IMG/VR virus record: IMGVR_UViG_3300005288_000003
Location: 1-64,000 of that record
From: a virus
Direction: 5' to 3' (one strand)
Length of the DNA: 64,000 nucleotides
Positions 6,903-58,150 of this stretch are shown here, one piece after another. The first letter of the stretch is position 1. Each line of letters starts with the position of its first letter. The notes beneath the pieces are model-generated. The model made no database searches, had not been told where the DNA came from, and worked only from the letters and a program-made list of their open reading frames with translations. The translations under genes were made by a program, and so were the position numbers.

Positions 6903-7097
6903 CTAGACTAGTGTAATTTTGATGTCGTTGAATGCGTCAACAGAGATACAGACAACTAAGTCGCCCAATTCTTCTCGGAATGCGTTCTGGATTCGATCTT
7001 CAAACTGGTGAATGCCAGCTTTAGTTGTTTGGATTTTTGCACCGAGTGCGATAACGTCGAACGCATATCTTTCTACTGTACGTTGTAAATCACTCAT
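6903..7097 (-). CDS. Hypothetical protein
   Basis: 64 residues, alternating helix and strand, no recognised motif. The start overlaps the stop of the HNH-like gene (ATGA), so it is translationally coupled. Confidence 0.7.
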   Translation of the reverse strand: MSDLQRTVERYAFDVIALGAKIQTTKAGIHQFEDRIQNAFREELGDLVVCISVDAFNDIKITLV

Positions 7098-7654
7098 TTC
7101 GTTCTCTCCTTCAATATGTTGACGATCTGTTCTCTCCGTCCTTTGGCAGTTTTTGCAGGGAAATCACATCCCCGTCCATTCTCTGTGATCCACAGTCTTA
7201 CCTTCGCGACAGGTAGCTTGCAGATTGCAATAGCTTCCTTCTCGATCAGGGCGTCTTGTACGGACATTCCAGAGCGTTCAGCGTATGTTTTCGCTTTGTG
7301 GCAGGCTTTGCAAATCAGGCCGAGGTCTTTATTAGACACGCAGACAATACCCTCTACAAACGACTGGAGGTCTTCCAGCTTTCGTAGTGAGTGTTCTCCA
7401 GTTAGGTGATCCACTTCCATATCTTTCAATGCGAAGTCTTTACCACACTGGTAGCAGTTACCGCCCCAAACCAGAGGGAATCTTGTGCGATTCTTCTCCA
7501 CAGGGTTGACAACACGCTTTCTGTTTGCTTTCAGAAACTCTAGCTTGATTGGGCTCTTGTTCCATAAAGAGCGACGTATGCCGCCCCGTACATAGGACAA
7601 GAACGCAGACTCTGTTTTCCAGATATGGCTGTGTTCTTCCCAAGGCTTATCCAT
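7094..7654 (-). CDS. HNH-type nuclease-like protein
   Basis: 186 residues with a zinc/HNH arrangement: CYQCGKDF, then MEVDHL (the likely active-site Asp-His), then LICKACHKAKTYAERSG. Such proteins occur in many phages as stand-alone HNH endonucleases. The start at 7654 has GGGGAG ten bases upstream and overlaps the end of the upstream HNH-AP2 gene. The ATG at 7672 has no ribosome site. It may be a selfish gene or a recombination/replication nuclease. Confidence 0.7.
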   Translation of the reverse strand: MDKPWEEHSHIWKTESAFLSYVRGGIRRSLWNKSPIKLEFLKANRKRVVNPVEKNRTRFPLVWGGNCYQCGKDFALKDMEVDHLTGEHSLRKLEDLQSFVEGIVCVSNKDLGLICKACHKAKTYAERSGMSVQDALIEKEAIAICKLPVAKVRLWITENGRGCDFPAKTAKGRREQIVNILKERTK

Positions 7655-8129
7655 GATTTGCGAACTCCCCATGGTGCCGGGAGCGAAATTCTACCACTAC
7701 CTTAGCAGCTTCGTCAACCGATTCGAATAATCCTAAATAGTGTATCTTGCCGAAATGGGAACATTGAGCTACCCACTTCCCGTTGGCTGCTTTCCAGCTA
7801 ACGCCTTTAACCCCTGACTTATTGTCTTTCCGTTTCGAGGCGTTATCTGCATTACCCTTCCTTGTTGCTAATCTGAGATTTCCAATACGGTTGTTTGTAG
7901 TGTCACAGTCTATGTGATCCACCAACGAAACAGGATACTCTCCTTTGCAAATAAACCATGCGAGATTATGACACTGATAACGCTTACCGTCAATAGTTAC
8001 TTTAACGTATCCTTCTGCGTTAGGTTTGATGACCTTTCCAGCGATGCCATGCCCCCTATTCACTTTCCATTTGAAAATGCCCGTTTCCGGGCAATAGTCA
8101 AGGAGGTCCAATACTCTAGACAATTCCAT
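7647..8129 (-). CDS. HNH homing endonuclease with AP2 domain
   Basis: 160 residues. The N-terminal HNH_3 domain shows LVDHIDCDTTNNRIGNLRLAT, with the catalytic Asp-His and the structural NRxxNL. The C-terminal AP2-type DNA-binding region is SGVKGVSWKAANGKWVAQ followed by HYLGLFESVDEAA. It overlaps the last codons of the 5'-3' exonuclease gene and the start of the next gene, typical of a free-standing homing gene inserted next to a conserved replication gene. Confidence 0.92.
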   Translation of the reverse strand: MELSRVLDLLDYCPETGIFKWKVNRGHGIAGKVIKPNAEGYVKVTIDGKRYQCHNLAWFICKGEYPVSLVDHIDCDTTNNRIGNLRLATRKGNADNASKRKDNKSGVKGVSWKAANGKWVAQCSHFGKIHYLGLFESVDEAAKVVVEFRSRHHGEFANHG

Positions 8130-12130: not shown

Positions 12131-14743
12131 TTAGTGACACGATGCCCATGAATTTCCAAGTATGTAGCCAGCAGTCAAGTCGATAGGCACCAACTCTGTG
12201 CTGTAGAACTGCCCTGCAAGCGATACAGCCTTCACAGCCAGCACACCCGCCTGACAGAACGCTACAAAATAGCCTCCACCTTTCGTAGCGTGGCTGATAT
12301 CAGACCATACACGGCCAGTGAGTTCGAAGTCTTTGTCCTTGAACGCCTGAGCCTCTTCCTTGGTTGCAAACCGTTTGAACGTCACTTCACTTGCAGACAC
12401 CTCAAGCTGTGCTTCGTCGTGGTACGCAATCATTTGCTGGCAGAACTTCTTATTTTTCCAGTCTTCCAAGAAGAAATCGACGGCTAGGCCGTTCTCTTTC
12501 AACAGAACGTCGTGAATGACCATTGCACGTTTGGCACAGATTACACCGCCCGATTGGAACAGGCTGTTTAGGATGGCGTGTGCAGAACGTGTTGGAACAC
12601 GACGCCCGTCAATCCCGATGATGTACTTCTTGCCATTCGCTTCCCACTCTTTCTGGAGCTGGTCTTTCAGGTGCTTGAGTGGGAATGCAGCATCCCAAAA
12701 CGCTTCAAACACTTGGTTGCCCGTTTGCAGGTCAGAACCAATGGTCTTGGCTACCTTAGCAGCTTGAGCGCCATATGTGCAACCGTACTTCACGTTCTTC
12801 GCTGGCGAACGACCAAACTCCCGACCGATGATAGCACTGATGGATTTCGCCATCATGGTGTGAACGTCAAACGGTTTGTCCAGCATCAACGACTTGCAGT
12901 ATGCCCGATCAGCAGCATCATAACGGTCGCAGTAGGCAGACTCGATACGCGCTTCCAGACTATCGAAGTCATACCCGATTTGGAAGTAGCCGTCAGAGAC
13001 GCCAAACAACGCTCTCAGCTCTTTCCCATACAGGCTGGTAACACGAGGCACGTTCGCCACCGAACGGTGCTTGAATCGGCTTGTAGCGGCTCCACAGGTG
13101 TCTGCCGGAGTTGGAATCCGACCATCTTCCCGCACGTTGCTAATGTAACCCTTTTCTGGCTCTTCGTCTGGATCATCCCAGTCAACACCACCACCGAGAA
13201 TCGAGTTACGTCGGTGTTTGAACGTTAGGTATTCAACCACGTCCTTAGCGAACGGGAAGCTTTCCGAGATACGTTCCAAGTCGGGACACATGTCCTTGTC
13301 TTGGCCCTTAGTAAAACTTGGATTACTAATAACTTTCAACCCACGACCACCACGTTCCAGCATGGCTTCAACCAGATTGCGATCAATTGGACGACGGTTA
13401 GGCCACAGATGTGCCAGACGATCATCACGGAACGCACTGTTCAGAGTCTGTTCAACATACCGCTCTACAGCTTCACGGAACTTGGTCGGGTCAAGCTTGT
13501 TCTTCTTGCTGTCAACCGTCAAGTCTTTTTCTTTGTACTCGCTCGGGTTCCAACCCAAAGACACCAGCCAGTTTTTGATGTGCGTGGTATCGTCAATGGT
13601 TGCATCCATTTCAGTGACCAACGGAACACCAGCTTGCAGCGGTAGAGAGTACACCTTGCCCAGCATTTCTACCGTGCGTGTTTCAGGATCGTATACGCCT
13701 TCGTGCTTGGCAATGAACTTCTCCATGTGAGCGGAGATTTCACCGTTCTTTTTGAACTGGGTTACAGGCGGTGTGTACGCCTTCATGAACACTTGAGTCG
13801 CTGGACGCTTCGGAAGCAACGGCTCTACTTTCACACGGCGCTCTTCCATCATCTTGTCCAATTCATCCAAGGCAATGTGAGCCTTTTCACGGTTGAAGTG
13901 GAAGCCCCGGTGTTCCTGTCGTGTGATGATTTCTGCGATGTTGTGTTCGAGCTTGATTGCACTCACCCACTTCATCAGTTCGTCACGGTTGTTCAGGTTC
14001 GGGCCAGCAGTCTTATGGTCGAGCTTGTTCTTGGTGCCATCCATCAAACCAAAGAACACTTCGGTGTTGGACTTAACGTCGAAAATACAGTAGTACAGCA
14101 TGTCAGCAGCGAAGTCACGGAAACGCAGATCGATGTGCATGTGCTTACGGAATGCGATCTTCTCGCTCGTACCACCAGAAGCCAGCTTCTCCAACGAGTG
14201 ACCGCCGTAGCGGTCAGGGTTCAAGCACTTAGACAACGGGAGTGTATCCCAAATTGCCAGCTTGTTACCGCCCCATGTATCACTGACAAAGGTCGTTAGA
14301 CCGCCGTCTCTAACTTCGTGACCAATGGTGAAATTGATCCCGTACATCAGCTTGATTGCCATCAAGTCGTAGCTGATTTGGTTGTGTGCTACCAGACGAC
14401 GGAACTTTGTCTTGAGGATGAACGCTTTCAGCTCAGACATCGGCTTGTGCGTGTACTCGACTGGAACGTAATTCGACAGCCAGTATTTCTCACCGTTGAT
14501 TTCTTCGTAGTGGTCCTGACCATCGAATTCGTACTTCGGTCCGTTGTGGAATGCTACGATTTCGCCAGTGAAATGGTTCTCGAATACAACACAGTGCATC
14601 GCGAAGTTGCCCTTCAACTTGTACGGGCTTGCCGTGTAGTCGATGGTGCGTTCGTTCAACAGGTCGTTTGCCTCGATGTCCCATGTCCAGTCGTCAGGGT
14701 GTGCGAATTTGTTAGGTTGAAATGGTGGTTTGATCAGGTTCAA
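12131..14743 (-). CDS. Family A (T7-like) DNA polymerase with 3'-5' exonuclease
   Basis: Replicates the phage genome. About 870 residues. The exonuclease domain starts with WDIEAN (D22, E24). Polymerase motif A is DFDSLEARI, motif B is RSPAKNVKYGCTYG and motif C is the palm HDE in AYHDEAQLE near residue 775. The C-terminus ends in SWASCH as in T7-like enzymes. I place the start at a TTG at 14743, which has AAAGGAG six bases upstream. The frame remains open back to 14809, but that segment is the terminator hairpin of the preceding gene. It partners the primase-helicase immediately upstream. Confidence 0.93.
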   Translation of the reverse strand: MNLIKPPFQPNKFAHPDDWTWDIEANDLLNERTIDYTASPYKLKGNFAMHCVVFENHFTGEIVAFHNGPKYEFDGQDHYEEINGEKYWLSNYVPVEYTHKPMSELKAFILKTKFRRLVAHNQISYDLMAIKLMYGINFTIGHEVRDGGLTTFVSDTWGGNKLAIWDTLPLSKCLNPDRYGGHSLEKLASGGTSEKIAFRKHMHIDLRFRDFAADMLYYCIFDVKSNTEVFFGLMDGTKNKLDHKTAGPNLNNRDELMKWVSAIKLEHNIAEIITRQEHRGFHFNREKAHIALDELDKMMEERRVKVEPLLPKRPATQVFMKAYTPPVTQFKKNGEISAHMEKFIAKHEGVYDPETRTVEMLGKVYSLPLQAGVPLVTEMDATIDDTTHIKNWLVSLGWNPSEYKEKDLTVDSKKNKLDPTKFREAVERYVEQTLNSAFRDDRLAHLWPNRRPIDRNLVEAMLERGGRGLKVISNPSFTKGQDKDMCPDLERISESFPFAKDVVEYLTFKHRRNSILGGGVDWDDPDEEPEKGYISNVREDGRIPTPADTCGAATSRFKHRSVANVPRVTSLYGKELRALFGVSDGYFQIGYDFDSLEARIESAYCDRYDAADRAYCKSLMLDKPFDVHTMMAKSISAIIGREFGRSPAKNVKYGCTYGAQAAKVAKTIGSDLQTGNQVFEAFWDAAFPLKHLKDQLQKEWEANGKKYIIGIDGRRVPTRSAHAILNSLFQSGGVICAKRAMVIHDVLLKENGLAVDFFLEDWKNKKFCQQMIAYHDEAQLEVSASEVTFKRFATKEEAQAFKDKDFELTGRVWSDISHATKGGGYFVAFCQAGVLAVKAVSLAGQFYSTELVPIDLTAGYILGNSWASCH

Positions 14744-14765
14744 TTCTCTCTCCTTTGTTGTGTCT

Positions 14766-14801
14766 AAAACGACGAAAGGGAGAGTACCGTAGTACCCTCC
14801 C
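14766..14801 (-). terminator. Terminator between primase-helicase and polymerase
   Basis: Leftward stem GGGAGGGTAC-TACG-GTACTCTCCC (one G-T pair) followed by TTTCGTCGTTTT. It lies after the primase-helicase stop and before the polymerase ribosome site, and would tune polymerase expression below that of the helicase. Confidence 0.8.
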
Positions 14802-14809
14802 ATTGTCAA

Positions 14810-16777
14810 TCAGTATTGCGATTCACCGCCCCATTGCTGGTATTCAACAAAGCCTCGCTCTGCAAGGCCACGTCGAGAGCTACCACGAGAGCTTTCACGC
14901 TCTTCTTCTTTGGCAGCTTGACCAGCTTCGTACTCTGCTCGTGCTGCTGGGTTCTTAGTGAGGTAGTCTTCCAGATCGTACAAAGTGTGTTCCTTGTTCG
15001 CGTAGAAGTACTCCCCAGCCTTCGGCCCTGTGTTGCCAGTCCAACGACACTTAGTCATCTTCATGTACGTGATGTTACGTTCAATCTCGCACTCAGCTTC
15101 TTTGTTTCGTGTGAACAACAGGTTGCACGCACCAGACTTGAAGATCGAGCTAGAGCCTTGGAAGTCCTCTTCGAACAGGTCTGCACCCGCCGAGTTCTGC
15201 TTCCCGCCCTGACCACTCTTACGGACGTGGTTGATGTTGATGAACGTCACCTTGTGGCTCTTCACAAGCCCTTTCTGCCAACGCATGAATACCGCCTGCT
15301 CTTCGTTGCTCATACCGTCCAGAATGTCTTGTAGAGGGTCGAGGATGATCACCTTGCAATCGCAGGAAATGATCAGCTCCATCACTTTCTCTTTCAGGTC
15401 ATCCAAGCCACCATCACGTTCGTCCAGCAAATGCCAACGGTGCGAGCCGTCAGGATTGTAGGTAAGCTCTTGAACAGCAGCCTCGAACTCTGGTGTGTTC
15501 ATCAGGTCGATTTTGTACTGCATATCTTCGATCAGTTCGAGCTTCTGACCAATGTGGCGCGAAGCCATCTTGATACCGTACTCTGCACAATCCGATTCCA
15601 GCGATACAACACCCACCTTGTGAGGCGAGTGGAAAATCCAGAAGTAAACCATTTCATCGACGATGGTCGATTTGCCCGTACCCGATGCAGAACCAAGGTT
15701 GACAATCCGGCCAAGTGGAATACCACCAGCCATCATCTTCTGTACCTTGTGCATGAACGCTGGCAATGGAATCTTCGGAACTACAGCCGCTGCTTTCATC
15801 AGAGAGAGCAACGATCCAGAACCAACAATACCGTTTGGCGTGTATGGCTGGCAAGCGAAGAACTCGGTGATGAACAGCCCTTGCTTGGCTACTGCCTGAT
15901 TCTTGTCTTTGTCCCACATGTAGCTGTTTGGGTCTTTCAGGGACATTTCCATGATGTACGCTTTGCCCTTCGGCAATGCCTTGGCGATCTTCTCTGCCGC
16001 TTCACGTCCAGCCGCATCGTTGTCCATGCAGATGATAACACGATCAAATCGGTTGAAGAACTCGTACTGTCCAACTACTTGCTTGTAGGCGCCAGATTCA
16101 CCGATGGTTGGCGACACAACGAACGTTGATTCGAAGTCTTGCCCTTTCTTGGCGTTCTCTCTTGCTCGGAAGTCAGCCAACATCTGATACGCCGAAAGCT
16201 GGTCAACTTCGCCGCCTACGATCAGGATATCTCGACTACGCTTTTGCAGGAAACGCCACTGGCCGAACATATGACAGTCCTTACCAGTTTCACCAATCCC
16301 CGCGAAGTCCTTGGGAATCATTCGTTTCTTGTAGCCTGTCAGCTCAAACCCCATATCGTTTTCAGCTTCTTGCGTGCACGGATAAAGCTGAGCAGACACA
16401 TTACCAGTGGCACCGTCAATCTCGTGACGTACTCCAAAGAAGGTGGTCGTATCTTTTCGAATACCGCGATAGCCAAAGCTGTCGTTTGTGGTTTGGGCTT
16501 TCAGTTGCTCGTGAATATCTGCGTTGAACAAACTGCCCACTAGATCATACTCCTTTTCAACTACTACACCGTTTTCTTCAAGCCACTCTTCGGAAGGGAT
16601 GGTAAAACCACCGCACCCACCGAAGCAGTGCGCTCCCTTGTGACGACCGTCTCTGTCGGTGCCATACACCATCAGGTTGTCGCCGCTGTTGTCCATGCCT
16701 TTCGCCACGCACTTTGGACAAGCAACCTTGCCCTCGGTATACAGGTCAATACCGTACTTATCTGCTACATCTGACAC
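14810..16777 (-). CDS. T7 gp4-like primase-helicase
   Basis: 655 residues. The zinc-binding primase N-terminus has C20, C23, H50/C51 and C55. A TOPRIM domain follows (IVGGEVDQLSA with the metal-binding Glu, then ICMDNDAAG). The RecA-like helicase has Walker A GSASGTGKST and Walker B VIILDPLQD. It unwinds DNA at the fork and lays primers for the polymerase encoded next. The C-terminal 40 residues are charged and probably bind the polymerase. The ribosome site is AAGGAGGGAACG. Confidence 0.93.
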   Translation of the reverse strand: MSDVADKYGIDLYTEGKVACPKCVAKGMDNSGDNLMVYGTDRDGRHKGAHCFGGCGGFTIPSEEWLEENGVVVEKEYDLVGSLFNADIHEQLKAQTTNDSFGYRGIRKDTTTFFGVRHEIDGATGNVSAQLYPCTQEAENDMGFELTGYKKRMIPKDFAGIGETGKDCHMFGQWRFLQKRSRDILIVGGEVDQLSAYQMLADFRARENAKKGQDFESTFVVSPTIGESGAYKQVVGQYEFFNRFDRVIICMDNDAAGREAAEKIAKALPKGKAYIMEMSLKDPNSYMWDKDKNQAVAKQGLFITEFFACQPYTPNGIVGSGSLLSLMKAAAVVPKIPLPAFMHKVQKMMAGGIPLGRIVNLGSASGTGKSTIVDEMVYFWIFHSPHKVGVVSLESDCAEYGIKMASRHIGQKLELIEDMQYKIDLMNTPEFEAAVQELTYNPDGSHRWHLLDERDGGLDDLKEKVMELIISCDCKVIILDPLQDILDGMSNEEQAVFMRWQKGLVKSHKVTFININHVRKSGQGGKQNSAGADLFEEDFQGSSSIFKSGACNLLFTRNKEAECEIERNITYMKMTKCRWTGNTGPKAGEYFYANKEHTLYDLEDYLTKNPAARAEYEAGQAAKEEERESSRGSSRRGLAERGFVEYQQWGGESQY

Positions 16778-17731: not shown

Positions 17732-17752
17732 GTGTCTCTCCTTTCTTGAGGC

Positions 17753-17783
17753 GAAGAAAAGCCCCGCTGCATAAGCACGGGGC
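17753..17783 (-). terminator. Rho-independent terminator
   Basis: Leftward stem GCCCCGTGC-TTAT-GCAGCGGGGC (one bulge) followed by TTTTCTTC. It would end any transcript crossing the 300-bp gene-free region to its right. Confidence 0.85.
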
Positions 17784-18732: not shown

Positions 18733-18760
18733 ATTCTACACTAGAACAGCCCGTTGTCAA
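18733..18760 (-). promoter_or_regulatory. Sigma70-type promoter
   Basis: Leftward TTGACA (18760-18755), 16-bp spacer, TAGAAT (18738-18733) followed by GGCC. The leader is short and unstructured before the gene at 18696. Confidence 0.9.
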
Positions 18761-21521: not shown

Positions 21522-21685
21522 TTCAACACTCCCACGATGTTGACCTGTTCGCCGGCGGCTTCGGATTTCACTCGGTCGATGAACGACAGGAAATGATACC
21601 CGTTCTTCCGGCTCCACGCAAGCACTGGCTCGTTTCCGAGGTGCTTCCGTAGCGTGTATTCTTCGAAATCATTGAGGTTGTACAT
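21512..21685 (-). CDS. Hypothetical small protein
   Basis: 57 residues from the ATG at 21685 (AAAGGAGAACAGC upstream). No recognised motif. It overlaps both neighbours slightly. Confidence 0.7.
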   Translation of the reverse strand: MYNLNDFEEYTLRKHLGNEPVLAWSRKNGYHFLSFIDRVKSEAAGEQVNIVGVLKCT

Positions 21686-21998
21686 GCTGTTCTCCTTTGG
21701 CCCATTCAATTGCTTTCACGAGGACATCCCCGTGGCATGCTTGAGGCGCACAATAGCAAGCCAACCGTTTCCCGTCAAGCTCTATTAGCATTTCTTTTGT
21801 AACCACATGACACTGAATCAGCTTCCACAGGTTCTGTTTATAGGCAGCTACAGCTTCTTCACGTGTTGCCACCTTCACATCTGCCTTCGTTCCTTCTTTG
21901 TGGCTGTATGGATTGCCCCAGCGGCTACCACGTCCGATGTATACAATGTCGGGATCATCCATGCACACCTTGTATTTGTTCACAACTGTTGCTGTCAT
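21669..21998 (-). CDS. DUF4326-family protein
   Basis: 109 residues. VYIGRGSRWGNPY, REEAVAAYK and LACYCAPQACHGDVL are the hallmarks of DUF4326, a family found in phages and bacteria without a firm function. The start at 21998 follows ACAGGAGAAGCATC. It is the first gene behind the structured leader at 21999-22305. Confidence 0.85.
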   Translation of the reverse strand: MTATVVNKYKVCMDDPDIVYIGRGSRWGNPYSHKEGTKADVKVATREEAVAAYKQNLWKLIQCHVVTKEMLIELDGKRLACYCAPQACHGDVLVKAIEWAKGEQHVQPQ

Positions 21999-22219
21999 GA
22001 TGCTTCTCCTGTGTAGATGAGTTTCGTAGTGGAGGCAAACCTGTCCCATAGCTCGCCATACAGATGTTCTCTGCCTCGACGTGCTATGAGGTTCACCTTC
22101 CGACGTTCTCGTGTAGATTGAGATCGTGAGCGGGCAGCATGTGCTGCAAGCGGCTGAGAGCCTTCCTCTATATAGAGTGTTCCATACGGAGTCGTCGCCA
22201 GACTGTTCTCTCATTCAAC
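21999..22219 (-). other. Untranslated, hairpin-rich leader of the DUF4326 operon
   Basis: The leftward transcript from 22306 has about 300 nt before its first good gene. This part contains the perfect palindrome CTCTATATAGAG and the hairpin GCAGCA-CA-TGCTGC. An in-frame extension of the DUF4326 ORF runs through it, but its residues look non-coding. No other gene is seen. Confidence 0.6.
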
Positions 22220-22305
22220 CTCAGCTGCCCCTCTGGCTATCCTCTTCGTAGGGCGTGTACCGTTCAGCCGGTGAGCGAGCCGTAGCTGACATGTCTCTCT
22301 GAACG
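22220..22305 (-). ncRNA. Structured leader RNA, copy B (two stem-loops at the transcript 5' end)
   Basis: Read leftward: P1 CGTTCAG/CTGAACG (22305-22299 with 22267-22261) encloses conserved AGAGACATGTC, a hairpin AGC-TACG-GCT and CGCTCACCGG. A six-base linker follows, then a second stem GCCC/GGGC (22254-22227) with GAAGAGGAT in its loop, then AGCTGAG. The same plan and the same unpaired sequences recur at 57978-58060, with compensating changes in P1 and in the inner hairpin. P1 begins at about +1 of the promoter at 22313-22340. Function unknown; an antiterminator (put-like) or other cis-acting leader is the leading idea. Confidence 0.75.
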
Positions 22306-22312
22306 TGGGGAC

Positions 22313-22340
22313 ATTCTATATGGGAAATTTATTTTGTCAA
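22313..22340 (-). promoter_or_regulatory. Leftward promoter of the divergent pair (early, leftward)
   Basis: TTGACA (22340-22335), 16-bp spacer, TAGAAT (22318-22313). Its -35 is five bases from the -35 of the rightward promoter, so the two polymerases would compete or share a regulator. Confidence 0.9.
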
Positions 22341-22345
22341 GGGTG

Positions 22346-22373
22346 TTGACAGCTTCCAGATAATCGGTAGAAT
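22346..22373 (+). promoter_or_regulatory. Rightward promoter of the divergent pair
   Basis: TTGACA (22346-22351), 16-bp spacer, TAGAAT (22368-22373) followed by GGCC. It serves the short rightward RNA ligase operon. Confidence 0.9.
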
Positions 22374-22773: not shown

Positions 22774-23919
22774 TGTCTGAACGTAAACTGGCTCGTGTTG
22801 TAATCATCGATTCGCTTCACCCGATCAAAGGCAAGGATCGTATCGAACTGGCTATGGTTGGTGGCTGGCAAGTCATCGTGCAGAAAGGTTTGTACGAAGT
22901 AGGTTCGAAGGCGATGTTCTTCGAAGTTGACTCGCTGATCCCAATTGAGTCGCCTGCTGGTGCGTCTCTGGCTGGCATTTCGTCTAAACTGAAACACGTG
23001 ATCGATGGCCAGCACAGACGCTCGGATCAAGACCATGAAGATGGCTGGTACGCTGTCGCAGGGCTTCTGTGTCCCACTGGCGGAAGTTGGTGCAAGTGAA
23101 GGTTGCAGCGTTGACTCTGACTTCACCAAAACGCTTGGTATCATTAAGTATGAAGCTCAGGCAGAGAAAGACAGCATCGCTGGTGGTACTGGCGTGAAGA
23201 GCGGCACTAGCGCTTTGGGCTTCCCGAAAATGATCCCGAAGACTGATCAGACTCGTGTACAGAACATTCCTGTGCAGTTTGACGCTGCTCGTGATGCGGG
23301 TGAACTGTTCGAGAAGAGCTTCAAGCTCGATGGTAGTTCGCTCACTGCATTTCTGTACAAAGGTGTGCCGGGTGTTGCCTCGCGTAACGTTGGCTTCCGT
23401 TTGCAGTCTGTGAACAAAGGCTTCGTGCAAACCGTCAAAGACTGGTGGAAGCAAGTGAAGCAACGCGGTATTCGTCGTGCGAATTGGGAACCTCAGTTCA
23501 AGGCAGACGACAACCAATTCACACAAGCTGCACAAGAATCTGGTGTTCTGACTGCGTTGGTTCGTGAGAACCGTAACCTCGCTTTCCAAGGTGAGTTGGT
23601 TGGCCCATCGATTCAGAAGAACTTCGAGGGCGTGGAGCAGAACGAGCTGTACATTTACGACGTGTACGATATCGATGCACAGAAATACCTTCTGCCTGCT
23701 GAGCGTCAAGCTCTGTGTGCGAAGTATGGCCTGAAACATGTGCCACTGGCATCGACTCACGCTGTTACCTTGCCTGTTGACGTAGCAACTGCTATCGTTG
23801 ATGCTGATGGTCCATCGGGTCTTAATGGCAAGTACCGTGAAGGCTTCGTGTACAAATCGATGACCCGAGACTTCTCGTTCAAGGTGATCAGCAACGCTTA
23901 CTTGCTCAAGGAGGAATGA
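22773..23919 (+). pseudogene. RNA ligase (DRB0094-like) split by a single-base frameshift
   Basis: The first frame (22773-23099) encodes the N-terminal part (MSERKLARVVIIDSLHPI...GWQVIVQKG...VFFEVDS pattern) of the RNA ligase family typified by DRB0094. The second frame (to 23919) carries the nucleotidyltransferase: motif I KLDGSS, motif III AFQGELVGP, motif IV EGFVYKS and motif V SFKVISNAYL. Homology passes from one frame to the other near 23005-23020 (gatggccagcacagac), as if one base had been inserted. The intact protein would have about 381 residues and would join RNA ends. An ATG at 23005 could still give a catalytic fragment. It could be a sequencing error, true decay or recoding. Confidence 0.8.
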
Positions 23920-29608: not shown

Positions 29609-31057
29609 TTAGTACCCGATAGCCATCCACTGGTATCCGCCTGTCCCGTAAGCCAGAGAGAATCCACTGTTGTTCTTATAACCAAGTCCAGAGCCTACAG
29701 CACCCAATGCGTTTGGTCCGTGAGTGACCGTGACCGAGCAAGACACTTTGTAAGGGATTCGGAAGTTCACCGATTGCCCTACCGAGATAGAGCCCCAGTT
29801 CATGATGGTCCCGTCTGGTAGTTGAGTAGCACCACCACTGTCATCAATGTTATGGCTAAAGATAATGTCCCCTGCTGGGTTCAAAAGCCCAACAACGTTC
29901 TTAGTCGCTGCACTTCCGAGATACAGGTTGTTACGAGCAGCTTGAACGTTTGTAAGGTCCGCAAGGTTGTTACCACGCCACAAGAAAGCTTCTGCTGGAG
30001 ACAGAGCAGCAGATTGAAGTCCAAGGTTAGTACGAGCAGCAGCTTGGTCAGAAACTCCTGCAAGGTTATCAGATTTGAACATAACCGCAGAAGGTGCAGT
30101 AGTTGCCAGCGATGTCAGTCCAAGGTTAGTACGGGCTGTCGCTGGGATAATATCCGACAGGTTGTTCGCTGTACGCAGGAAGTACGACTCTGGACGAATA
30201 GCAGTGCTTGTCAGTCCAAGGTTGTTACGAGCGTTGGTTGCGTCCGTGATATCGCTCAGATTGTTAGCGCTCAGTAGGACATCTGCTTGATCCAGAGTTG
30301 CTGTAGTTCCAAGTCCGAGGTTGGTACGGGCGGTTGCAATGTTTGCCAGTCCTGCCAAGTTTCCAGACTTCTTCAAGAGAACAACACCAGCCTTCAATGG
30401 TGTAATGGCTTTAGTGTCATCTGTTCCAGCTTCGGTATCGCCATTGGTTGCAATGCGAACTACACCAAGGATTGTTTCGGTCGCCTGTAGAAGCAGACTG
30501 CTCAATTGTCCTAGCGGTACTGCGTGAGCTGGAAGTGTTGCGGTTGCTACGCTGAAAGGCTGTGAAGCCAATCCCGCCAAAGCGGCATAACGTGCATCAC
30601 TCTCTGCACGACTCCACACTGACAAGTTAGAACGAGCCAACACAGGGTTGCCAATTCCAGCAAGTGTAGAGTAGTTTGTCAGGTGTTGTGTAAGTTGGTT
30701 TTGAACAACAGCAACACTACCGTAAGCTTCGAAGGCTCGTACCCAATAGAGACTGTTCAATGGGTTAGATGGGTTGAAGTTCTTGTGAGTTGTAAGGCAC
30801 TTGTAGATGTATCCATCGGAGCCTTGTGTGTAGCTCAAGTTACCCTGATATTCCGTTTCAGAGTCCCATTCTGGAACACCATGTTGGTTGAGGTGGGCGA
30901 TGAATGTGTCTTGTCTGTTGTCAAGCCAGTTTTGGTACTGGTATGGTGGAAGTTCAACCACCCATCCAATGTTAGATTTAACCAGACCCGGATCAACCTT
31001 AGTCCCACCCGCAGCCCATAGTTGGTTAATTCCTGATGGTTTTACGATATTAGCCAT
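29609..31057 (-). CDS. Tail fibre protein 1
   Basis: 482 residues. The N-terminal 100 residues (GWVVELPPYQYQNWLDNRQD...GVPEWDSETEY) are related to those of tail fibre 2 and probably attach to the baseplate. The middle has at least five repeats of the NLSDI..ATARTNLGL type, typical of phage fibre shafts. The C-terminus ends WMAIGY, as in many receptor-binding tips. A terminator separates it from the assembly gene. Confidence 0.88.
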   Translation of the reverse strand: MANIVKPSGINQLWAAGGTKVDPGLVKSNIGWVVELPPYQYQNWLDNRQDTFIAHLNQHGVPEWDSETEYQGNLSYTQGSDGYIYKCLTTHKNFNPSNPLNSLYWVRAFEAYGSVAVVQNQLTQHLTNYSTLAGIGNPVLARSNLSVWSRAESDARYAALAGLASQPFSVATATLPAHAVPLGQLSSLLLQATETILGVVRIATNGDTEAGTDDTKAITPLKAGVVLLKKSGNLAGLANIATARTNLGLGTTATLDQADVLLSANNLSDITDATNARNNLGLTSTAIRPESYFLRTANNLSDIIPATARTNLGLTSLATTAPSAVMFKSDNLAGVSDQAAARTNLGLQSAALSPAEAFLWRGNNLADLTNVQAARNNLYLGSAATKNVVGLLNPAGDIIFSHNIDDSGGATQLPDGTIMNWGSISVGQSVNFRIPYKVSCSVTVTHGPNALGAVGSGLGYKNNSGFSLAYGTGGYQWMAIGY

Positions 31058-31530: not shown

Positions 31531-33765
31531 TTAGTATTTAATGCAGGCAAGCAACGCAATGTTCTTCATTACAGTTTCTACACCACCAGTGTTGTTGATT
31601 GTAATACCAGTTTGCTTCGAACCCGTGTTACCCCCGCCCGCCAATGCACCAAATACCCCACCAGCAGTATATGCTGTGCCTTGTGTGGCGTTTGTCTGAG
31701 CGTGGAAGTGACTTGGGTCATTGATGGTGTGTCCGTGAGAACCTAGGCCATCAGCTTCGTAACTACCGAATACACGGTTTGCGTTCAACCCTCTACCATT
31801 ATCCCAACCTCTGGCAGCAACACCACGACCATCAGGCACGTTGAATGTTGTACTACCATCACCAACACCGAAGGGGCAAATTACAACAGAGGTAACAGTT
31901 GCGTTAGTGTTTGCAGAGATTGTAATACTGGTTCCGTTTGGAACTGTAACAACAGTGGCACCGGCTGGAATACCTGTACCAGAGAGAGGCATGCCCACCC
32001 ACATAGAGCTTGTAGATGCGAACCCTCCGATAGTTGTAGTACCAGAAGAAGCAGAACATGTAGCAGTTACTGTAATTGCAGAAAACAAAGCTGCGTAAGT
32101 TGTACGAGATACAGCAGCGCCGTTCGCCCCTAGATAGCCAGTTGGTGGAGTCATTGTGGCAAACCAATCCATCAGGCCCGGTTGTAGAGCAGTACCAGCA
32201 GAGATAGCAGCAGCCACGAAGGCTGTAGAAGCAGCTTGTGTATTGTTTGTGCCGGGAGCCGCTGTTGGAACAAGCGGAGTTCCAGTAAACGTCGGAGACG
32301 CTTCAAGAGCAACGTTGCCGAGGTCTGTTGTATCGATTGTGAGCTTGAGCTTAGAACCTGCACTCCAGCCTAGTTTAACCACGTTAGATGTCTGACCGAC
32401 GCCAGTACCTTGTTGAACTGGTGTGAAGCCCAAGAGGTTTTGCTTGGTATCTAATGCAGCCTGCTGAGCTGTAGACACTGGTTTGTTTACGTCGCTGGTG
32501 TTATCGACGTTACCCAGTCCAATGGCTTTACCGTTGAAGCGGTTGTAACCCAAACAAACCCAACTGCCACTGCCGTTGGACAGCATTTCTGCCGAGTCAC
32601 CCGATTGAGTCAGGATGTTGGCTGCTGTTGGCAGGTTAATTACAGATGCGTTGTGGGTTAGAGTCAGTCCACCACCGAAGTAAACAGTACGACGTGTTCC
32701 CGCCACCACTGTATCGAATGCAGTGATAGTTGTTGAACCAGTGATCAGGATAATGTTACCAGCAGCCGCACCGATGTTTACAGTGGCAGCAGAAGCGAGG
32801 GTTACAACAGCTTCATTGAGAGCCCCAGCCAAAGCAGTAACGCCGTTAAGCGTAACACCGGATAGCGATGTGATGTCCGTGTTGGCACCAGACTTTGCAG
32901 CCGAAAGTGTAGCGCGTGCGGTTGCAGCGTCTACGTCGTCCAAGATTGTACGGGCAAATGGAGTTAGAGCTGTTTGTGCAAAGGTGTCAGTACCTGTAGA
33001 GTATACAAGTTGGTTAACACCAGTAGCAATCCCAGCAAGGGCTGTCAGTGTAGCGTCCAGTGGTTGTTTGGTTGCATCACCAGCGGCGATTGCACTGTCA
33101 ACTTCTGCTGCGCTGTACACTGACAGAGTTGTACGGGCGGATGCAGCATCAACAGGAGCCAACAAACTGCGACCGAAGGCAGTCAAGGTAGTACCTGTCA
33201 TCGATGTGCTGCTATCGAAGTAAGGGAGTACGTTGACTGCTGGTGTCACGTTGGACAGGGATGTCAAGTTAGTTGCGGCAAGCTGTGCTCCGAGAGTTGT
33301 ACGGGCTGCTGCTGCATCAACATCGTCAACCAATGTACGAGCAAATGCGGTGAAGGTTGTTACTGCGGAAGTTGATGCTCCAGTGTAGTACGGGAGTTTA
33401 TCAGCAGCAGGGGTTAGAACTTTCAGTGCCTCAAGGGCTACAGCACTCTCTACGAACGCTTTAGTCCAATAGGTGGTAGCGGTAGCTGGGTCTTGGTTTG
33501 TGCATGTCAGAATGCACTTGTAGATGATGTTGTTACGTTGCACATAAGATTTGTTGGTCAGGTATTCGGTGAATTGATCCCACTCTGGAATACCCTTTTG
33601 AAGCATGTACGCGATGTTGGTGTCTTGACGGTTTTCAAACCAGTTCCACCATTGACGGGGAACAGCTTCAACTGCCCAGCCCGCTCTTACTTTCGCAGAT
33701 TCTGGAGCAACAACGTCACCAGCGACGGCCCAAATGTCCGTCATGTCCTGCTTGATAATATCCAT
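31531..33765 (-). CDS. Tail fibre protein 2 with collar domain
   Basis: 744 residues. The N-terminus (GWAVEAVPRQWWNWFENRQD...GIPEWDQFTEY) is paralogous to fibre 1. Repeats of the DDVDAAAARTTLG type follow. The C-terminus holds a tail-collar domain (PPTGYLGANGAAVSRTTYAALF ... DGSTTFNVPDGRG) and a GSHGHTINDPSHFHAQ tip rich in His, possibly metal binding. About 70 extra residues (SASSGTTTIGG...SVVICPF) are inserted inside the collar domain. Confidence 0.88.
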   Translation of the reverse strand: MDIIKQDMTDIWAVAGDVVAPESAKVRAGWAVEAVPRQWWNWFENRQDTNIAYMLQKGIPEWDQFTEYLTNKSYVQRNNIIYKCILTCTNQDPATATTYWTKAFVESAVALEALKVLTPAADKLPYYTGASTSAVTTFTAFARTLVDDVDAAAARTTLGAQLAATNLTSLSNVTPAVNVLPYFDSSTSMTGTTLTAFGRSLLAPVDAASARTTLSVYSAAEVDSAIAAGDATKQPLDATLTALAGIATGVNQLVYSTGTDTFAQTALTPFARTILDDVDAATARATLSAAKSGANTDITSLSGVTLNGVTALAGALNEAVVTLASAATVNIGAAAGNIILITGSTTITAFDTVVAGTRRTVYFGGGLTLTHNASVINLPTAANILTQSGDSAEMLSNGSGSWVCLGYNRFNGKAIGLGNVDNTSDVNKPVSTAQQAALDTKQNLLGFTPVQQGTGVGQTSNVVKLGWSAGSKLKLTIDTTDLGNVALEASPTFTGTPLVPTAAPGTNNTQAASTAFVAAAISAGTALQPGLMDWFATMTPPTGYLGANGAAVSRTTYAALFSAITVTATCSASSGTTTIGGFASTSSMWVGMPLSGTGIPAGATVVTVPNGTSITISANTNATVTSVVICPFGVGDGSTTFNVPDGRGVAARGWDNGRGLNANRVFGSYEADGLGSHGHTINDPSHFHAQTNATQGTAYTAGGVFGALAGGGNTGSKQTGITINNTGGVETVMKNIALLACIKY

Positions 33766-57458: not shown

Positions 57459-57659
57459 TCAATAATCTGTTGTTGATGATTTCATGGCTGTCACACCATC
57501 GATGGGATACCGCCCGCCTACATACTCTCTTTCAGGTGCGGAATGCTTGCTCATAAATTGGCATGCAAAACACAAATCTTCTTCTTGTTTTGTATCTGGA
57601 TTATATCGAGGGATTTCATGTTTTGTTAGCGCGTTATTACATGCTCTGCATCGGGACAT
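57459..57659 (-). CDS. Small zinc-ribbon protein
   Basis: 66 residues. CRACNNALTKHEIPR....EEDLCFACQFM: two CxxC pairs, a pattern common to small phage proteins with a zinc ribbon. The target is unknown. AAGGAACCAATCC precedes the ATG. It is the first gene behind the long leader RNA of the promoter at 58070. Confidence 0.75.
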   Translation of the reverse strand: MSRCRACNNALTKHEIPRYNPDTKQEEDLCFACQFMSKHSAPEREYVGGRYPIDGVTAMKSSTTDY

Positions 57660-57694: not shown

Positions 57695-57977
57695 AGTCTC
57701 CTTCTATATTTCATATGATGATGGATTGTATGTGGATGGGTTAAGTGGTTGATTTATAAGATGTTGATCTTATGGGGATAGATTCTTAACGGAAGGTAGA
57801 CTCAGCCCAAGGGATCGCCATACACAAAAGTGCCTAAGACGAAACCTTGGTCTACCTTCCACAAGTTCTCATGAGGATGAGTTCTTGAACGGCCTGTATG
57901 GACAGGAGACAGCGTTTGCTGTCAGGTTCTGGTCATTCCCTCCGAAGAGGTCAGCTCCACGCTATAACCAGATGAGA
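57695..57977 (-). other. Long hairpin-rich untranslated leader
   Basis: No gene is seen here. Perfect stems include GGAAGGTAGAC/GTCTACCTTCC (11 bp, 57797-57861 region, enclosing CAAGG/CCTTG), GACAGC-AAAC-GCTGTC, CCTGT-CCAT-ACAGG, CTCAT-CCTC-ATGAG and ATAAGAT-CAAC-ATCTTAT as read on the minus strand. It continues the transcript that begins with the two-copy RNA element. Confidence 0.65.
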
Positions 57978-58060
57978 CTCAGCTTGCCCGTGTGGAATCC
58001 TCTTCATGGGCTACATCGTTGGCCGGTGAGTGATGCTTTCGCAGACATATCTCTCCAACG
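57978..58060 (-). ncRNA. Structured leader RNA, copy A (two stem-loops at the transcript 5' end)
   Basis: Read leftward: P1 CGTTGG/CCAACG (58060-58055 with 58022-58017) encloses AGAGATATGTC, a hairpin TGC-GAAA-GCA and CACTCACCGG. After a five-base linker comes GCCC/GGGC (58011-57986) with GAAGAGGAT in the loop, then AGCTGAG. It corresponds element for element to copy B at 22220-22305. P1 starts within about three bases of the predicted +1 of the promoter at 58070-58098. Confidence 0.75.
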
Positions 58061-58069
58061 ACATTCACG

Positions 58070-58098
58070 ACTATAACCGACAAGCGGCTTAATGTCAA
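58070..58098 (-). promoter_or_regulatory. Leftward promoter of the second divergent pair
   Basis: TTGACA (58098-58093), 17-bp spacer, TATAGT (58075-58070). Confidence 0.88.
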
Positions 58099-58121: not shown

Positions 58122-58150
58122 TTGACAACTCAGATAGGCAGTGTTACTAT
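58122..58150 (+). promoter_or_regulatory. Rightward promoter of the second divergent pair
   Basis: TTGACA (58122-58127), 17-bp spacer, TACTAT (58145-58150). It serves the PhoH/ClpP operon. Confidence 0.85.

Follow-up and report, generated by a model that had tools for sequence, protein, structure and literature searches.

A large pseudoknotted phage RNA with a repeated octamer: copy B of a promoter-linked leader in Pseudomonas phages

Introduction

Several structured or promoter-linked RNAs have been described that bear comparison with the element analysed here. In the replication pre-primer RNA II of plasmid ColE1, a structured non-coding transcript of 550 nt, the contact between an rG stretch of the RNA and a dC stretch of the template strand is essential for the stable R-loop that primes replication (Masukata and Tomizawa 1990, as summarised in PMC4412123 and PMC5043065). 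The rG stretch lies in an upstream loop of the RNA. The phage T4 origins oriF and oriG use promoter-linked persistent RNA-DNA hybrids (PMC4412123, PMC5043065). T4 uses a middle promoter and a DNA unwinding element. The PUT antiterminators of phage HK022 are RNAs of about 70 nt with two hairpins, present in two copies near the starts of early transcripts and acting in cis. The ROOL and GOLLD RNAs, of about 600-800 nt, are ornate phage RNAs with pseudoknots and unknown function, often found near tRNA islands (PMC12286853), and the Pseudomonas phage PAK_P3 has two small RNAs, sRNA1 and sRNA2, near its tRNA region (PMC4933390).

Here we analysed a 64,000-nt stretch (the window; positions 1 to 64,000 of the 97,840-nt IMG/VR record IMGVR_UViG_3300005288_000003), which similarity searches place among Pseudomonas phages of or near Otagovirus, Pakpunavirus and Flaumdravirus. 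A sequence-only reading had described an 87-nt RNA element in two copies and proposed that it acts in cis in an antitermination system. We find that these 87 nt are the front third of a roughly 300-nt folded RNA without an Rfam match, in which an octamer displayed in a hairpin loop recurs about 100 nt downstream.

Results and discussion

Two copies of a promoter-linked element

Copy B lies at 22306-22220 (-) and copy A at 58061-57978 (-), 35.8 kb away on the same strand. Local alignment of copy B against the window gives a score of 67 for copy A, compared with 31 for the next best place and a maximum of 34 for shuffled queries, whereas plain blastn within the window misses the match. Both copies sit directly behind the leftward promoter of a divergent pair. 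The rightward partners are TTGACA-N16-TAGAAT at 22346-22373 (+) for B and TTGACA-N17-TACTAT at 58122-58150 (+) for A. The gene-free leader is 308 nt for B (to the ATG at 21998) and about 400 nt for A (to the ATG at 57659). Thus the reported observation is confirmed, with the corrections that the conserved RNA is about 300 nt rather than 87 nt and that the terminators said to lie downstream are largely unconvincing (see below). The features of the locus are as follows.

22313..22340 (-): sigma70-type promoter of copy B (TTGACA-N16-TAGAAT), with +1 predicted at about 22306
21999..22306 (-): whole structured RNA or leader, copy B
22260..22305 (-): helix P1 (CGTTCAG/CTGAACG), enclosing P2 and the conserved GAGAGAYATGTC ... 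CNCTCACCG
22226..22254 (-): P3 (GCCC/GGGGC) with the conserved TANGAAGAGG loop; the loop strand GCCAGA is the 5' arm of the pseudoknot
22155..22214 (-): P4 (TGAGAG/CTCTCA) with P5; the 5' strand TCTGGC is the 3' arm of the pseudoknot
22134..22147 (-): P6 hairpin, GCAGC-ACAT-GCTGC
22103..22127 (-): hairpin displaying S1, the octamer ATCTACAC at 22118-22111 in the apical loop
22031..22101 (-): domain III (GGAAGGTG...CGTC-GAGGC...GTATGGCGA...TTTGCCTCC)
22011..22018 (-): S2, the identical octamer ATCTACAC, just before the Shine-Dalgarno of the DUF4326 gene
21669..21998 (-): DUF4326 gene, first gene of the leftward transcript (PF14216, E 2.5e-21)
57768..58061 (-): copy A of the same RNA, upstream of a small Cys-rich ORF and the tRNA cluster, with S1 at 57878-57867 and S2 at 57779-57768
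58070..58098 (-): promoter of copy A (TTGACA-N17-TATAGT)
17752..17783 (-): the one convincing intrinsic terminator in the leftward operon (GCCCCGTGC..GCAGCGGGGC TTTTCTTC)
12131..16777 (-): DNA polymerase A (12131-14809) and primase/helicase (14810-16777), in the same direction downstream
23005..23919 (+): RNA ligase gene (PF09414) on the other side of the divergent promoter

A ribonucleotide reductase is also encoded leftward of B. Two HNH endonuclease genes lie within the nucleotide-metabolism operon (1979-2671 and 7094-7672, both -), and large leftward ORFs contain internal direct repeats at 30018-30341 and 33125-33365, with spacings of about 96-99 bp and 168 bp.

In 48 of 50 copies with a recognisable promoter, P1 starts shortly after the -10 hexamer, nearly always at 8 or 9 nt (range 7-11), that is, at about +1, so the 5' end of the RNA is taken as the transcription start. 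The proposal that the placement is tied to transcription start was right. The promoter type TTGACA-N16-TAGAAT recurs at 12121-12094, 18760-18733, 22340-22313, 22346-22373 and 55488-55461, heading several transcripts of this phage, and one repeat family detected in the window consists of three of these promoters.

Structure and covariation

Aligning A and B copies of relatives shows conservation along the entire leader. On 40 sequences, the structure comprising P1 to P5 and a pseudoknot between the P3 loop and the P4 5' strand has 86% of cells paired, compared with 58% in shuffles and 36-45% when slid, and 320 two-sided changes, compared with 96+-8. All seven P1 pairs (97% of cells paired), all six P4 pairs (94.6%) and five of six pseudoknot pairs covary, with 81% of cells paired in P5. 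On a second set of 36 distinct rows (alignment A3), most of them outside the training alignment, the values are 90.6% against 53% paired and 282 against 91 two-sided changes, with 98% for P1, although this alignment is fitted to the model and so leans towards it, and a few of its sequences were also in the training set. P6 is a covarying helix in the long alignment. Domain III is a long hairpin for which RNAalifold on 26 relatives gives 20 pairs, 11 with compensatory changes. Single-sequence folding of the 96 nt around the originally reported element gives no signal (z +0.3), because P1, P3 and the pseudoknot need comparative data. We regard this anatomy as near certain.

A model of the element (R1) matches copy B at 22309-22133 with 130 bits and E 6e-39, the window sequence having been in its training alignment. 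Rfam 15 has no match at E<=10 over 22000-22350, and only tRNAs are found at gathering thresholds in the window and 15 distant loci. Neither ROOL nor GOLLD, both of which are in Rfam, matched, and neither did group I or group II introns or HEARO.

The ornate, phage-specific fold, the position of copy A next to a tRNA cluster and the variable neighbours in distant phages could suggest a stand-alone, trans-acting RNA of the ROOL/GOLLD kind, expressed from its own promoter and possibly processed from the leader. In a siphovirus sub-group domain III looks like a terminator, ending in a T-run that could terminate before S2, and these phages show no clear promoter at P1. The T-run in members of the type of locus L042 (L numbers denote our loci from other phages and contigs) initially appeared to prove a stand-alone transcript, but the T's also pair within the domain III stem, and the feature is ambiguous. 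Synteny at A and B and, at B, the overlap of S2 with the translation start region argue for a cis role, and a trans role does not predict identical S1 and S2. We consider this alternative unlikely.

Distribution

All 14 related Pseudomonas phage records first searched whole have exactly two strong matches to R1; KIL2 has a third, marginal one (E 0.02). Wherever annotation was read, one match lies upstream of the tRNA cluster (A) and one at the early-type operon, often beside the RNA ligase (B). BLAST with copy A reaches 183 phage records. The whole PAK_P3 record, in contrast, has no match to R1. Divergent members occur in Vibrio breoganii phages, phiPMW and many IMG/VR contigs. Of the 60 hits of the first scan about ten were chance, and a loose domain III pattern in IMG/VR gave mostly chance matches. 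Of five hits among genome contigs four are chance; the fifth, L227, is real and lies in a bacterial MAG, on a contig with a terminase-like gene nearby. The element belongs to a structured RNA class without an Rfam entry, present by similarity in well over a hundred sequenced Pseudomonas phage records and in unrelated phages, in regions annotated as empty or as small ORFs. Small ORFs annotated on top of the element in several GenBank records (L297:1606-1995, which is phiPMW PMW_181; L005:1636-1773; L006:1618-1746; L010:1640-1870; L013:1590-1811) are probably not genes.

The neighbours of divergent members vary. A ResIII/UvsW-like SF2 helicase gene lies next to the element in siphovirus-like contigs (L026, L032, L042, L051, L056, L063, L301), sometimes before and sometimes after it. 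In L035 (1652-3097 in element orientation) a DUF2828/DUF7788 protein, TROVE-like in our reading, is encoded about 1 kb downstream; Ro-type proteins bind structured RNAs. HNH or other endonuclease ORFs follow the element directly in several phages (L137:469-1197, L300:3228-4220, L310:2074-2499, L001:3394-3534), at 0.3-0.45 kb downstream in L137, L300 and L310, and KIL2 has a 'putative endonuclease'. These could suggest that the element is a remnant or part of a mobile element. However, they are absent from most copies, A and B are syntenic across Pseudomonas phage genera, and no group I/II intron or HEARO family in Rfam matched, which makes this explanation very unlikely. The HNH genes may be free-standing homing genes near a conserved target.

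An octamer repeated by identity

Before domain III a hairpin displays an octamer (S1), and just after domain III the same octamer recurs (S2). The letters differ between RNAs, but in 49 Pseudomonas-phage RNAs S1 and S2 agree over six letters in 48, the only miss being copy A of this window (5 of 6; ATCCTCAT / ATCCCCAT), which has two substitutions over 12 nt, one of them in the octamer. Of 29 distinct S2 octamers, 28 match their own S1, whereas permuting partners gives a mean of 1.5 and a maximum of 7. Five further members from a second scan show the repeat by eye at the same place, and the Vibrio phages have TAGAGCAGT twice; the repeat is exact over 8-9 nt in most, but covers only 6 nt in L301 and 12 nt with one internal mismatch in L310. 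S1 lies in a stable hairpin (-6.3 compared with -3.6 kcal/mol shuffled), whereas S2 does not (-2.3).

The alignment columns covary by identity and no column pairs with them. S has no complement inside the RNA above control, and none stands out in the four phage genomes searched. The A and B copies of one phage usually have different S, so a single trans partner per phage is unlikely, and protein operators or a host RNA binding both copies of S were set aside because S differs between A and B of one phage. Ribosome hopping, which needs only a codon, was set aside, as was reverse-transcriptase template jumping, since no RT family appeared among the proteins scanned, although that scan was not a search of the phages for RT.

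Two further alternatives bear on the repeat. The matched loops flank one domain, and an RNA ligase is encoded across the B promoter in the window and several relatives, which could indicate that S1 and S2 are equivalent cut sites flanking domain III (HAC1-like), resealed by the ligase. However, a nuclease would prefer a fixed sequence, yet S is free to vary and differs between A and B of one phage; S2 is usually not in a stable hairpin; and no ligase was seen near divergent members. This reading appears improbable. Similarly, because the S2 octamer at B abuts the Shine-Dalgarno of DUF4326, S2 could be part of the ribosome entry region and S1 a decoy in a riboswitch-like leader controlling the first gene. 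At A, however, S2 lies about 110 nt from the start codon, and the downstream genes differ (DUF4326, Cys-rich ORF, HNH endonuclease, helicase), which leaves this possibility equally improbable.

Antitermination

The sequence-only reading held that the leftward transcript crosses many small genes and terminators at 17753, 14766 and 11588, as antitermination would require. Only the first, at about 17783-17752, has a strong hairpin plus T-run; 14766 has a hairpin but a poor T-run, and 11588 has a hairpin without a T-run. Strong promoters on the same strand at 18760, 17622 and 12121 make read-through unnecessary for much of the operon. The location at +1 of early-type transcripts, the two copies on two transcripts and the one strong terminator fit a PUT- or EAR-like leader that makes RNA polymerase read through terminators. 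However, no antitermination RNA matched among such families as Rfam holds, the RNA is far larger than PUT, antitermination does not explain the identity-locked octamers, in some siphovirus-like contigs the element lies after rather than before the neighbouring helicase gene, and an RNA of this size with a pseudoknot and such a repeat is not what known antitermination leaders look like. Thus the earlier interpretation is partly supported: a promoter-linked element tied to transcription start is strongly supported, whereas antitermination is not excluded but is unlikely, and nothing here supports it over other cis roles.

A proposed R-loop-forming leader

Free letters plus enforced sameness, without a third partner and with different S in the A and B copies of most phages, leave few options. 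The one with precedent is pairing of the RNA loop with the template DNA strand at S2. We therefore propose, tentatively, that during transcription the S1 loop pairs with the template strand at S2 and anchors an R-loop, which would most likely serve as a pre-primer or activation site for phage DNA replication (an origin) and less likely alter elongation. The complex 5' domains would hold S1 in place and protect or position the RNA. The fold, the promoter-linked start, the two copies and the identity of S1 and S2 are established by sequence comparison, whereas the hybrid, its persistence, its processing into a primer and its use as an origin are inferred.

Several pieces of evidence are compatible with this proposal: (i) Among genuine repeats, the five strict internal differences between S1 and S2 all have G in S1 and A in S2, wobble-compatible with RNA S1 on the template strand of S2 (a sixth, C/A in L271, came from a wrong alignment diagonal), and both differences of copy A of the window (U/C, G/A) are likewise compatible. 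This bias could, however, reflect A-rich DNA after S2 or the S1 stem. (ii) The phage has a family A polymerase and a primase/helicase downstream of B. (iii) SF2 helicase genes adjoin the element in several unrelated siphovirus-like contigs, although these neighbours may reflect shared ancestry. (iv) DNA after S2 is AT-rich, but only modestly (0.60-0.65 compared with 0.51). The latter three are weak, circumstantial support. Eight pairs is short, no origin is known to have been mapped in these phages, and the possible termination before S2 in the siphovirus sub-group also weighs against the proposal.

Coevolution by sameness rather than complementarity is a rare type of signal, and in this reading a change in S1 or S2 alone would destroy function that a matching change in both should restore. 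If the reading holds, it would name replication origins for a large group of therapy-relevant phages. In its most far-reaching form, which is doubtful on present evidence, a widespread phage RNA class would program its own DNA contact, with a freely variable octamer in a folded leader kept identical to a site about 75-115 nt downstream, where the nascent RNA would anneal to the template strand and start phage DNA replication, giving two such origins per Pseudomonas phage.

Comparison with known systems

The PAK_P3 sRNA1 and sRNA2 are likewise phage RNAs near a tRNA region, but the absence of any R1 match in PAK_P3 shows that they are not this element. ROOL and GOLLD share the ornate, pseudoknotted character and the frequent proximity to tRNAs, but are longer and differ in sequence and structure. 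The PUT RNAs resemble the element in having two copies near the starts of early transcripts, but are about 70 nt long, with two hairpins and no pseudoknot or repeat. T4 oriF and oriG share a phage promoter with a downstream hybrid region (inferred here) and occur several per genome, but depend on a middle promoter and a DNA unwinding element, and no conserved folded RNA or S1/S2 repeat is known for them. ColE1 RNA II shows no sequence or structural homology to the element, is 550 nt rather than about 300 nt and uses a G-tract rather than an octamer of free sequence, and no equivalent of its antisense RNA I is known here, the divergent promoter starting upstream, outside the RNA. As in ColE1, however, a structured transcript folds upstream of its putative target, a family A polymerase is available, and a short stretch of the RNA is identical to downstream non-template DNA, so that it can pair with the template strand.
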